A model generated the notes under the pieces. That model was not told where the DNA came from, ran no database searches, and worked only from the letters and a program-made list of their open reading frames with translations. Positions 9,040-11,719 of a DNA stretch of 39,414 bases are shown one piece after another; the stretch's first letter is position 1, and the number at the start of each line of letters is the position of its first letter. Source of the DNA: Chloroflexota bacterium (GTDB lineage Bacteria; Chloroflexota; Anaerolineae; Aggregatilineales; Phototrophicaceae); contig RFIA01000209.1 of NCBI GenBank assembly GCA_003695675.1, positions 1 through 39,414 on the forward strand, given 5' to 3'. The translations under genes were made by a program, and so were the position numbers.

Positions 9040-9750
9040 TTAATTCAGACTCGCTGCCATTTCGCTCAGGCCACTGCGGACGCTGCCATCGATGACGCGG
9101 TCTTGACCGCGCACGACGAGGCCGCCGAGAATGCTCGGGTCAACGATGAAGGTAACTTCGTCGGCGCCAAGCTGCTTGCGTACCTGATCTTTCTCTTTGT
9201 CATCAAGTGGCATCGCGCTGACGACTTCAACCTTGCCAGACATACCTTTGGCGGCTGCCGGGACTTTGCTGAAGAATTCGGAAACCAGCGCTTGTTGGCG
9301 TTTGCTGTCGATTTCGGTGTTGATGAGTTGACGTGCCATCGCGACCGAAATTTGCGCGACTTGACCGCGCAAGCCAGCGAGTTGCTGCTCAAGTTGTTGG
9401 CTTGCTTCGGCGCGAGCATCGGCGCGGAGCTTGTCGGCGTCCGCTCGGGCTTCGGCTTCGATTTGTGCGGCGACCTCTTCGCCGCGCGAACGAGCATCGT
9501 CGATGATTTTCGCAGCTTCGGCACGCGCCTCGCGCAAGATGTTGTCGCGTTCGGCCTCGGCATTTTTCCGGGCTGATTCGGCCGCGGCGGCATCTTCGAG
9601 ACCCTGTGCGATGCGTTCACGACGTTCGCGCAGCGCTTTGGCAAGCGGGTCATAAATGAAGCGGCTCAGCAATGTGTAAATCACGATGAATGCAATGATT
9701 TGAATCGCCAGATAACCGCCATTAATACCCAGACTTTCAAGTGGACTCAT
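9040..9750 (-). CDS. atpF: ATP synthase F0 subunit b fused to the C-terminal domain of delta
   Basis: Peripheral-stalk subunit of the F1F0 ATP synthase. Residues ~10-35 form the single membrane helix (GGYLAIQIIAFIVIYTLLSRF). Residues ~36-165 are the long charged coiled coil rich in Ala, Glu, Arg and Asp. From ~172 to 236 the sequence changes to the C-terminal domain of subunit delta (OSCP): EVVSAMPL, FIVDPSILGGLVVRGQDRVI and DGSVRSGLSEMA match that family closely. The six-helix N-terminal domain of delta, which binds alpha in other bacteria, is not present, and no separate atpH is in the window. Usual b is about 160 residues, so the extra ~70 are the delta part. It follows atpE closely. Identity as b is sure, and the delta match is strong by motif. 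Confidence 0.93.
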   Translation of the reverse strand: MSPLESLGINGGYLAIQIIAFIVIYTLLSRFIYDPLAKALRERRERIAQGLEDAAAAESARKNAEAERDNILREARAEAAKIIDDARSRGEEVAAQIEAEARADADKLRADARAEASQQLEQQLAGLRGQVAQISVAMARQLINTEIDSKRQQALVSEFFSKVPAAAKGMSGKVEVVSAMPLDDKEKDQVRKQLGADEVTFIVDPSILGGLVVRGQDRVIDGSVRSGLSEMAASLN

Positions 9751-9782: not shown

Positions 9783-10022
9783 TTAAAGGACGAACAGAAT
9801 GATGAGCGACACCACGAGCGCGTAAATCGCGACCGCTTCAGCGAACGCCACACCAAGAATCATGTTCGTTTGGATGGTGGGGGTGAAGTCGGGGTTACGC
9901 CCCATCGCTTGCACCGCGCCACCAACTGCTAGGCCGATTCCAACACCACCACCAGCAGCACCAATCATGGCGAGACCGGCTCCGATTGCTTTACCCAGTG
10001 TGATAAGGGCTTCTGATTCCAT
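9783..10022 (-). CDS. atpE: ATP synthase F0 subunit c
   Basis: The c-ring proteolipid, a two-helix hairpin of 79 residues in the membrane. Helix 1 has the glycine repeat (GAAGGGVGIGLAVGGA), the cytoplasmic loop is the usual RNP turn, and helix 2 carries the ion-carrying Glu in GVAFAEAVAIYALVV. The residues around that Glu are hydrophobic, without the Gln in helix 1 and the Ser or Thr after the Glu that mark sodium rings. This indicates proton coupling. Start ATG at 10022 has an AGGAATGAG-type ribosome site. It is the third gene of the operon, with atpB upstream and atpF downstream. Confidence 0.97.
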   Translation of the reverse strand: MESEALITLGKAIGAGLAMIGAAGGGVGIGLAVGGAVQAMGRNPDFTPTIQTNMILGVAFAEAVAIYALVVSLIILFVL

Positions 10023-10121: not shown

Positions 10122-11456
10122 TTAATGTGCATGTGCATCGTCATGTTCGTCATGGTCGTGCGATTGTGTCGCCAGATTCATGAAGATTGCAGTGAGCAGG
10201 CCGAAGACGACAGCTTGAATGATCCCGACGAAGAATTCCAGAATGAAGAATGGCAACGGGAAAATGATCGGGAAGACGAAACTCGTCACGAACAGCAGAA
10301 TCGACCCGGCGAAAATGTTGCCGAGTAGACGGAACGAGAACGAGAGCAGCTTCGCGAATTCGCCGACCAATTCAAGCAAGCCGACGGCCACATCGATACC
10401 GCCGAGTGGCGACGTAAAAATGGTCTTGAAGTTGAAGAATTTGCCGAGATACCCGATACCAAGCGCGCGGAAGCCAATCGCCTGTGTCCAGACGACGGCG
10501 ATGATAGCCAGCGCAATCGTCAGATTCAAATCGGTTGATGGGACACGAACGTAGGGCAAGACGACCCACGGCACATTCGGGTCACCCGCGGCGACGGCGT
10601 GAATCGGGATGTGTACCTCTTCTTCGGCGTGTTCTGCTTCGCCTGCGACGGCTTCTTCTGCACTTTCGGCAGACTCTTCGCCTTCAGGGGCGGCTTCTTC
10701 GCTTTCGGCAGCGCCTTGTTCCTCGTCGTGTGCTGCTTCGTCGCCATGATCGTCAGCACCTTCAAAGAGCACAGGCGGTGGCAGCTCCACACCTGTACCC
10801 GTCACACAACCTCTGTCGGCGCGGGCTTGTTGTTCTTCGGGCGTCAACTCGGTGGCGGCTTCGGGGCTAATCCATTCGCATTTGCCGTTGAGGTGGAAGA
10901 CGCCGGATAAAATCTCAATCGTTTCAAAGCCGTCCGTCAGTTCTTCACCGATGACTTCGCCGGTTTCTTCGTCTACAATTTCTTCGTAATGCGGTTCGAG
11001 GAAGCCGATGCTGTCGACACTTGGGATGAGTTCGAGCCAGTTGCTGAGCAACACGATGAGAAAGATCGTCATAAAGACTTTGAATATTTCGTGCTGATAC
11101 GGTCCGGCAGCAATACCCCCAATGAAATTGTACAGCCCTTCAAAAGCCATCTCGAACAAATTATAAAACCCACCGCGTGGTACTTCGTCGCCACTGCTTG
11201 GCCTGCGTGTCGCGACATAAATCGTCAACAAGCCGATGATGACCCACACAATAATCGATCCCATCATCGTGTTGGTCATTGGCAGACCGGTGTCCGGCAT
11301 TGAGAGTACACCGAAGAGCTTCCATCCTTCTGGGTAAACCTCGCCGGGCAGTTGAACGACAGGTACAACAGGCGGCGCAATCAAGAAGACTGCGATACTC
11401 GCAATCAACATGAGGAGCGCAATATAGCGCCGTTTACCTTTCCAATTTATTCCCAC
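10122..11456 (-). CDS. atpB: ATP synthase F0 subunit a with a large acidic loop
   Basis: Membrane stator subunit that forms the proton half-channels against the c-ring. The essential arginine is Arg376 in SFRLLGNIFAG. SNWLELIP (138-145) and RVPSTDLNLTIALA (304-317) mark the helices before and after the first hairpin. At 444 residues it is much longer than the usual 240-300. The excess is one loop of about 150 residues (146-298) between those markers, which by homology with E. coli faces outside the cytoplasm. That loop has two Cys (193 and 217) and a low-complexity stretch of mainly Glu and Ala (about 233-280). The C-terminus is rich in His and Asp. Start is GTG with a strong AGGAGGAGGAT site that overlaps the end of atpZ. 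Identity sure. Confidence 0.97.
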   Translation of the reverse strand: MGINWKGKRRYIALLMLIASIAVFLIAPPVVPVVQLPGEVYPEGWKLFGVLSMPDTGLPMTNTMMGSIIVWVIIGLLTIYVATRRPSSGDEVPRGGFYNLFEMAFEGLYNFIGGIAAGPYQHEIFKVFMTIFLIVLLSNWLELIPSVDSIGFLEPHYEEIVDEETGEVIGEELTDGFETIEILSGVFHLNGKCEWISPEAATELTPEEQQARADRGCVTGTGVELPPPVLFEGADDHGDEAAHDEEQGAAESEEAAPEGEESAESAEEAVAGEAEHAEEEVHIPIHAVAAGDPNVPWVVLPYVRVPSTDLNLTIALAIIAVVWTQAIGFRALGIGYLGKFFNFKTIFTSPLGGIDVAVGLLELVGEFAKLLSFSFRLLGNIFAGSILLFVTSFVFPIIFPLPFFILEFFVGIIQAVVFGLLTAIFMNLATQSHDHDEHDDAHAH

Positions 11457-11719
11457 TGATTATCCTCCTCCTTTGGCGGTGCAGGATTCTGGAAACGTTT
11501 CGCATGATAAGTGGTATAACGATAAATCACCCACAGGCTGACCGGGATGCTGCCCAGCAACAACACCAGCAACCCGAATGGTTTTGTTCCTAAAATGGTA
11601 TCGACCGCGAGGCCAACTACCAGAGCGCCACCCGCAACCAGCGTCAACAAGCATCCGATTTGCGCCATCGCGCGGATGGCAAGGAGATATAATGCTGACG
11701 GGTCTTTATCGGAATTCAT
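11447..11719 (-). CDS. atpZ: AtpZ/AtpI-like ATP synthase accessory membrane protein
   Basis: A 90-residue protein with two hydrophobic helices (about 17-37 and 44-64) and a charged C-terminal tail. It has the glycine-rich first helix and the short turn of the AtpZ family, linked in other bacteria to assembly of the c-ring or to magnesium/calcium handling. It is the first gene of the F0 operon, the usual place for atpI/atpZ, and its stop overlaps the atpB start by 10 bases. Its own sequence similarity is modest because the family is short and variable. Position raises the confidence. Confidence 0.8.
   Translation of the reverse strand: MNSDKDPSALYLLAIRAMAQIGCLLTLVAGGALVVGLAVDTILGTKPFGLLVLLLGSIPVSLWVIYRYTTYHAKRFQNPAPPKEEDNQWE

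Follow-up and report, generated by a model that had tools for sequence, protein, structure and literature searches.

In an Anaerolineae bacterium, subunit b of the F-type ATP synthase continues directly into the C-terminal domain of subunit delta, and the N-terminal domain of delta (NTD) is, as far as a sensitive profile search can see, not encoded anywhere in the genome. This domain is viewed as what anchors the peripheral stalk to F1, and since 2025 also as the element that sets the number of stalks to one per enzyme. The fused protein is a variant of the F-type peripheral stalk, in which a b/delta-C homodimer quite likely grips subunit alpha directly, in the manner of FliH, as the stator arm of the organism's sole F-type ATP synthase.

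Gene and Protein Architecture

The fused gene lies in a stretch of 39,414 nucleotides (the window, meaning the whole stretch analyzed), where the genes for subunit c, subunit a, and a weakly matching AtpI-like protein are found upstream of it in the same direction. The relevant features are as follows.

9040–9750, minus strand: atpF-type gene of 236 aa, encoding F0 subunit b joined to the C-terminal domain of delta (Pfam, alignment, model)
9262–9750, minus strand: subunit b part, residues 1–163, with a membrane helix at about 11–33, a long coiled-coil helix to 143, and a C-terminal capping helix at 149–161 (PF00430; alignment with Bacillus PS3 b; AlphaFold model)
9241–9261, minus strand: short linker, residues 164–170, in place of the delta NTD of about 105 aa (alignment, model, superposition)
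9043–9240, minus strand: delta/OSCP C-terminal domain, residues 171–236 (PF00213; superposition on solved delta C-domains)
9783–10022, minus strand: F0 subunit c, 79 aa (PF00137, E 4.8e-18)
10122–11456, minus strand: F0 subunit a, 444 aa, with a Glu/Ala-rich insert (PF00119; 9itj_T)
11447–11719, minus strand: small membrane protein resembling AtpI, first of the F0 genes (weak PF09527, E 0.0024, below cut-off)

The protein contains a Pfam match to ATP-synt_B (PF00430) at residues 14–143 (E 3.5e-25, 89.1 bits against a cut-off of 28) and one to OSCP/delta (PF00213) at residues 137–235, covering profile positions 67–172 (E 2.1e-14, 54.4 bits against a cut-off of 22.3). The believable start of delta is near residue 171; the PF00213 alignment before this point runs over the C-terminal helices of b itself. 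The b part can be aligned with Bacillus PS3 b up to residue 160 of the latter's 168 and ends at residue 163. The seven residues between the b part and the delta match therefore leave no room for an NTD of about 105 residues.

A structure model predicted from an alignment of 45 sequences (mean pLDDT 86) shows a single long helix (residues 11–143), a second helix (149–161), and a beta-alpha-beta-beta-beta-alpha domain (173–235). The six-helix N-terminal domain of delta is absent from this model. The C-terminal domain superimposes on residues 105–174 of E. coli delta (Z 9.5, 1.6 Å, 65 residues) and on residues 86–154 of Chloroflexus delta (Z 9.8, 1.9 Å); across E. coli, Chloroflexus, and other deltas the deviation is 1.4–2 Å over about 65 residues. 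An earlier note on this DNA had described the product as a b subunit with the C-domain but without the N-domain of delta. The two Pfam matches, the predicted fold, and the superposition all bear out this description.

Among solved structures, the best match to subunit a is the a chain of the Chloroflexus enzyme (9itj_T, E 6.4e-43; runner-up 3.3e-14). The Glu/Ala-rich insert of subunit a (10122–11456, minus strand) comprises about 100 aa and sits between conserved parts. Among the b genes of this family in other genomes, the fused b proteins of L149, L151, L157, L159, and L165 carry a signal-like hydrophobic N-terminal extension ahead of the usual membrane helix.

Search for the N-Terminal Domain of Delta

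The source genome (4.70 Mb in 421 contigs, 92% complete) contains a single match each to OSCP and ATP-synt_B, and both are the fused gene. Relaxing the whole Pfam OSCP model to E ≤ 1 revealed no further delta in this genome, so the absence of a separate atpH, as previously noted, holds genome-wide. An NTD-only profile built from 19 full deltas of Anaerolineae recovered all 20 full-delta genomes of this class outside the building set (E ≤ 7e-17), as well as seven of seven from other Chloroflexota classes (E ≤ 1e-7). The same profile found no credible match in any of 47 reduced-delta genomes (the source genome and 46 relatives); the best E value was 0.026, inside a frame of 959 aa. Since several of these 47 genomes are single contigs, the absence of the NTD does not stem from missing sequence. 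Within the reach of this profile, the NTD is lost and not encoded elsewhere. The earlier note had offered two alternatives, a minimal peripheral stalk or an NTD encoded at another site. These searches support the former and lend no support to the latter.

Next to the F1 or F0 genes of the reduced-delta genomes, we found no conserved extra gene beyond the known subunits, the AtpI-like gene, and unrelated neighbors. A residual NTD in some fused proteins, suggested by OSCP alignments reaching back to profile positions 12–70, was dismissed, as the alignment merely enters the coiled coil. The genomes G011, G036, G095, and G339 give no OSCP/delta match even at E ≤ 1, though they are 89–99% complete.

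Distribution and Order of Events

An OSCP match occurs in 359 of 396 Anaerolineae genomes. About 145 of the 359 score as full-length delta (E ≤ 1.7e-23), and in about 214 the best match has an E value of 6.5e-21 or weaker; this split was counted from listed rows, and the 214 may include a few fragments or N-ATPase b proteins. In 80 genomes examined in more detail, most of them with weaker matches, the alignments were limited to about profile positions 98/104–172, in frames mostly of 235–300 aa (b fusions) and some short ones. Standalone NTD-less deltas directly after b are spread over several families and measure 81 aa (L112), 84 aa (L086, L124, and L120), 118 aa (L103), and 120 aa (L105). Those at L112, L086, L103, and L105 are Pfam-confirmed C-domain genes located next to b or between b and alpha. 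An apparently short delta at L077 was counted as full, because this genome has frameshifts at that position. Judged from these matches, the reduced delta is a clade trait of Anaerolineae that spans much of the class. Public records likewise place the fused gene in Anaerolineae, with contigs named Anaerolinea, Thermanaerothrix, Leptolinea, Brevefilum, Promineifilum, and Thermoflexus.

In the rest of the phylum nearly all sampled genomes keep a full delta. The exceptions are family f68, with frames of about 160–207 aa that match from about profile position 37–65, and family f77, with a protein of 125 aa covering profile positions 70–172; by the extent of these alignments, both deltas, which belong to another class, represent a milder reduction of the NTD. 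No clear b-delta fusion was found outside Anaerolineae among the sampled Chloroflexota genomes.

In a tree of alpha and beta, reduced deltas appear in several places. The fused genomes form one large clade (support 98), which includes one unfused reduced genome, plus the outlier family f49. In a tree of b and the delta C-domain, the fused proteins all group together (99) and branch from among the separate b/delta pairs, and the N-ATPase b proteins form a clade of their own (98) apart from them. These topologies make it probable that the NTD disappeared on more than one occasion. The F0 tree implies one origin of the fusion and the F1 tree sets f49 elsewhere with modest support, which makes the count one or two. 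The fusion thus probably arose once or twice, independently of the N-ATPases, with exact numbers that hang on weakly supported branches. Standalone NTD-less genes show that the NTD can be lost without fusion, and since families related to the fused ones keep such a delta of 81–120 aa beside b, NTD loss could have preceded fusion.

A Possible Mechanism for the Reduced Stalk

In the enzyme of PS3, the N-terminal region of one alpha touches the C-terminal region of delta, and those of the other two touch the NTD in the central hollow (PMC12229609). Four positions of the alpha N-terminal helix (−21, −17, −13, and −10 before a conserved Gly) are hydrophobic in 24 of 24 full-delta genomes, and equally so in 25 of 25 fused and 7 of 7 standalone-reduced genomes, where the helix also keeps its length. 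The N-type alpha helix is less regular, with position −13 hydrophobic in 50%. The retention of both length and hydrophobic face suggests that alpha still has a partner, and the simplest candidate, as far as sequence conservation can tell, is the C-domain of delta.

We therefore favor a stalk in which the stator arm of the only F-type ATP synthase would be made from a single gene. Subunit b would pair with itself, like bacterial b, so that each stalk would end in two delta C-domains instead of one. The single b gene also points to a homodimer, which the count of two C-domains per stalk assumes. One C-domain would hold the N-terminal helix of an alpha directly, resembling ordinary enzymes in which the delta C-domain already takes one of the three alphas. 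The second may hold another alpha helix or the F1 crown, like the C-domains of the FliH dimer on FliI: in FliH2, one C-domain binds FliI helix 2–21, and a basic patch is bound by the second (PMC9114704). Such a stalk would do without the NTD, whose usual place is the central hollow of F1, where it brings together the two remaining alpha helices. An engineered PS3 enzyme without the NTD, in which the C-domain was fused to alpha, still makes ATP (PMC12229609). Since this precedent tied the C-domain to alpha covalently, a C-domain that is not so fused may bind F1 weakly. The alpha helix could also be conserved for another reason.

The number of such stalks per enzyme could be higher than one. The NTD, placed on the threefold axis, reportedly limits F1 to one stalk; deletion of this domain from PS3 combined with the C-domain–alpha fusion yielded enzymes with two and up to three stalks and raised H+/ATP from 3.0 to 5.8, and the authors of that study predict natural multi-stalk cases (PMC12229609). 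By analogy, one F1 might be surrounded by two or three b/delta-C dimers, every one paired with a separate a subunit, and use more protons per ATP, which we consider a tentative reading. In the 9itj series of structures from Chloroflexus aurantiacus, each entry contains two a (36 chains in 18 entries), four b (72 in 18), and two delta (12 in 6), and the delta chain 9itk_W is modeled over 70 residues only, namely, the C-domain. A structure study from 2025 is said to describe this enzyme as two-stalk. Together with the reported role of the NTD, these copy numbers make several stalks per enzyme a testable possibility. Subunit a of the window is closest to this two-a enzyme, but such closeness reflects the shared phylum. 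Furthermore, the Chloroflexus delta (157 aa) keeps much of its NTD, so that the link between NTD loss and stalk number is not strict, and each natural stalk would bear two C-domains, unlike the engineered enzyme. It is rather unlikely that a large natural clade that has lost the stator-limiting domain carries two or three stalks, with as many a subunits, per F1 and makes ATP at lower proton-motive force, spending more protons on each ATP.

Alternative Explanations

The role of the NTD could instead be supplied by a highly diverged protein without detectable similarity or by an extension of another subunit. One candidate for such an extension exists. The F1 genes of the source genome occupy a locus separate from F0, split across two contigs, in the order proC-like gene, alpha, gamma, beta, and epsilon, with gamma spanning the contig break. 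This gamma has a C-terminal tail of about 100–140 aa with a helix-hairpin-helix domain (HHH_5, E 4.6e-10; L008:2-1042, contig C112), which also occurs in the relatives L071, L087, L088, L063, and L069. We read the tail directly in six genomes of the source family, frame length suggests two more, and it is absent from all full-delta genomes surveyed. In L072, the long gamma frame proved to be an upstream extension and not a tail. The tail should emerge near the apex of F1, where the delta NTD would sit. Nevertheless, it was rejected as a substitute, as it is confined to part of the source family and most reduced-delta genomes lack it. Near residue 308 of alpha, many fused-b genomes (e.g., L073, L078, and L104) carry an insert of about 50 aa; this insert is internal and also occurs in the full-delta genome L190, and is therefore not a compensating domain. 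Given that the NTD profile detects every control and none of the 47 reduced-delta genomes, and that no additional gene is conserved beside the F1 or F0 genes, we judge a hidden replacement of the NTD to be unlikely.

Acquisition of an N-ATPase b by horizontal transfer would explain the equal domain layout, the lack of a separate delta (PMC5706428), and a weak match to TIGR03321. This origin is very improbable, since the N-ATPase models are missed by wide margins (b 58.7 bits against a cut-off of 224.7, c 43.3 against 130.85, and a 49.9 against 302.1), the fused b clade stands apart from the N-type clade, and alpha and beta also fall outside the N clade. In the N-type arrangement a single operon carries beta, a, c, b, alpha, and gamma; here, F0 and F1 occupy separate loci with another gene order. 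Finally, the fragmented assembly with gamma across a contig break might raise suspicion of an assembly error, a missed stop, or a decaying pseudogene, but the fusion aligns in 44 relatives that span many families and include closed single-contig genomes, and it recurs in public records of many Anaerolineae, which makes such an artifact scarcely conceivable; conservation over 45 sequences excludes a coincidental match as well as an overlooked stop codon.

Comparison with Known Systems

Mycobacterial b-delta (AtpFH; 7jg5 chain d) likewise unites b and delta on one chain. This protein of about 445 aa includes the whole delta with its NTD, as the earlier note correctly stated, and is accompanied by a separate short b, whereas the protein described here is 236 aa long, lacks the NTD, and comes from a genome with only one b gene. 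The mycobacterial-type model NF009961 gives 68.5 bits against an equivalog cut-off of 328. The earlier interpretation, which is supported in part, left out two precedents, N-ATPase b and FliH, and, made from this DNA alone, could not cover the spread of the trait through the class, the unfused NTD-less genes, or the retained alpha helix.

N-ATPase b (TIGR03321, alternate F1F0 ATPase) shares the layout of a long b with a delta-C-like end and no separate delta, but belongs to another operon and a separate clade, and the fused gene stays far below the family cut-offs. The N-ATPase is reported to accompany a main ATP synthase as a second enzyme (PMC5706428), whereas the fused-b enzyme is the only one in its organism. 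Although N-ATPases have been called always additional, the N-ATPase-like operons L100, L101, and L102 (genomes G053, G017, and G082) apparently encode the sole F-type enzyme there, with one gamma match per genome.

FliH/SctL shares a b-like coiled coil followed by a delta-C-like domain, and the FliH dimer holds the N-terminal helix of its ATPase (PMC9114704). Superposition of FliH (5b0o) on the C-terminal part of our model gives Z 6.7 over 81 residues. Unlike the fused b, FliH lacks a membrane helix and works with a homohexamer, and the family model PF02108 scores 21.6 bits against a cut-off of 24.1. By analogy, the fused b probably works most like FliH, on the basis of the conserved alpha helix pattern. 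The FliH layout has been proposed as ancestral. N-ATPase b and FliH are convergent or distant relatives of the fused b, which forms a separate family and lacks tested defining features of FliH, N-ATPase b, and mycobacterial b-delta alike. In the open-licence papers searched, we found no description of an NTD-less b-delta-C stalk.

In the engineered PS3 enzyme, delta is likewise cut to its C-domain and attached to another subunit (PMC12229609). There the partner is alpha, an arrangement for which Acidaminococcus fermentans is a natural candidate (PMC12229609); in Anaerolineae the partner is b, or the C-domain is free in related families. The F1Fo enzyme of Chloroflexus aurantiacus (9itj series) comes from the same phylum and has related a, b, and delta subunits, but unlike the fused gene its delta, shortened to 157 aa, is a separate gene with part of the NTD. 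One phylum thus holds a natural series that runs from full delta through shortened delta and free C-domain to a C-domain joined to b, and cultured genera are among its lineages. This series, in which an F-type stalk was reduced to the FliH layout independently of the N-ATPases, allows the role of the NTD to be tested directly in nature, both as an anchor and as the domain that limits an enzyme to one arm.
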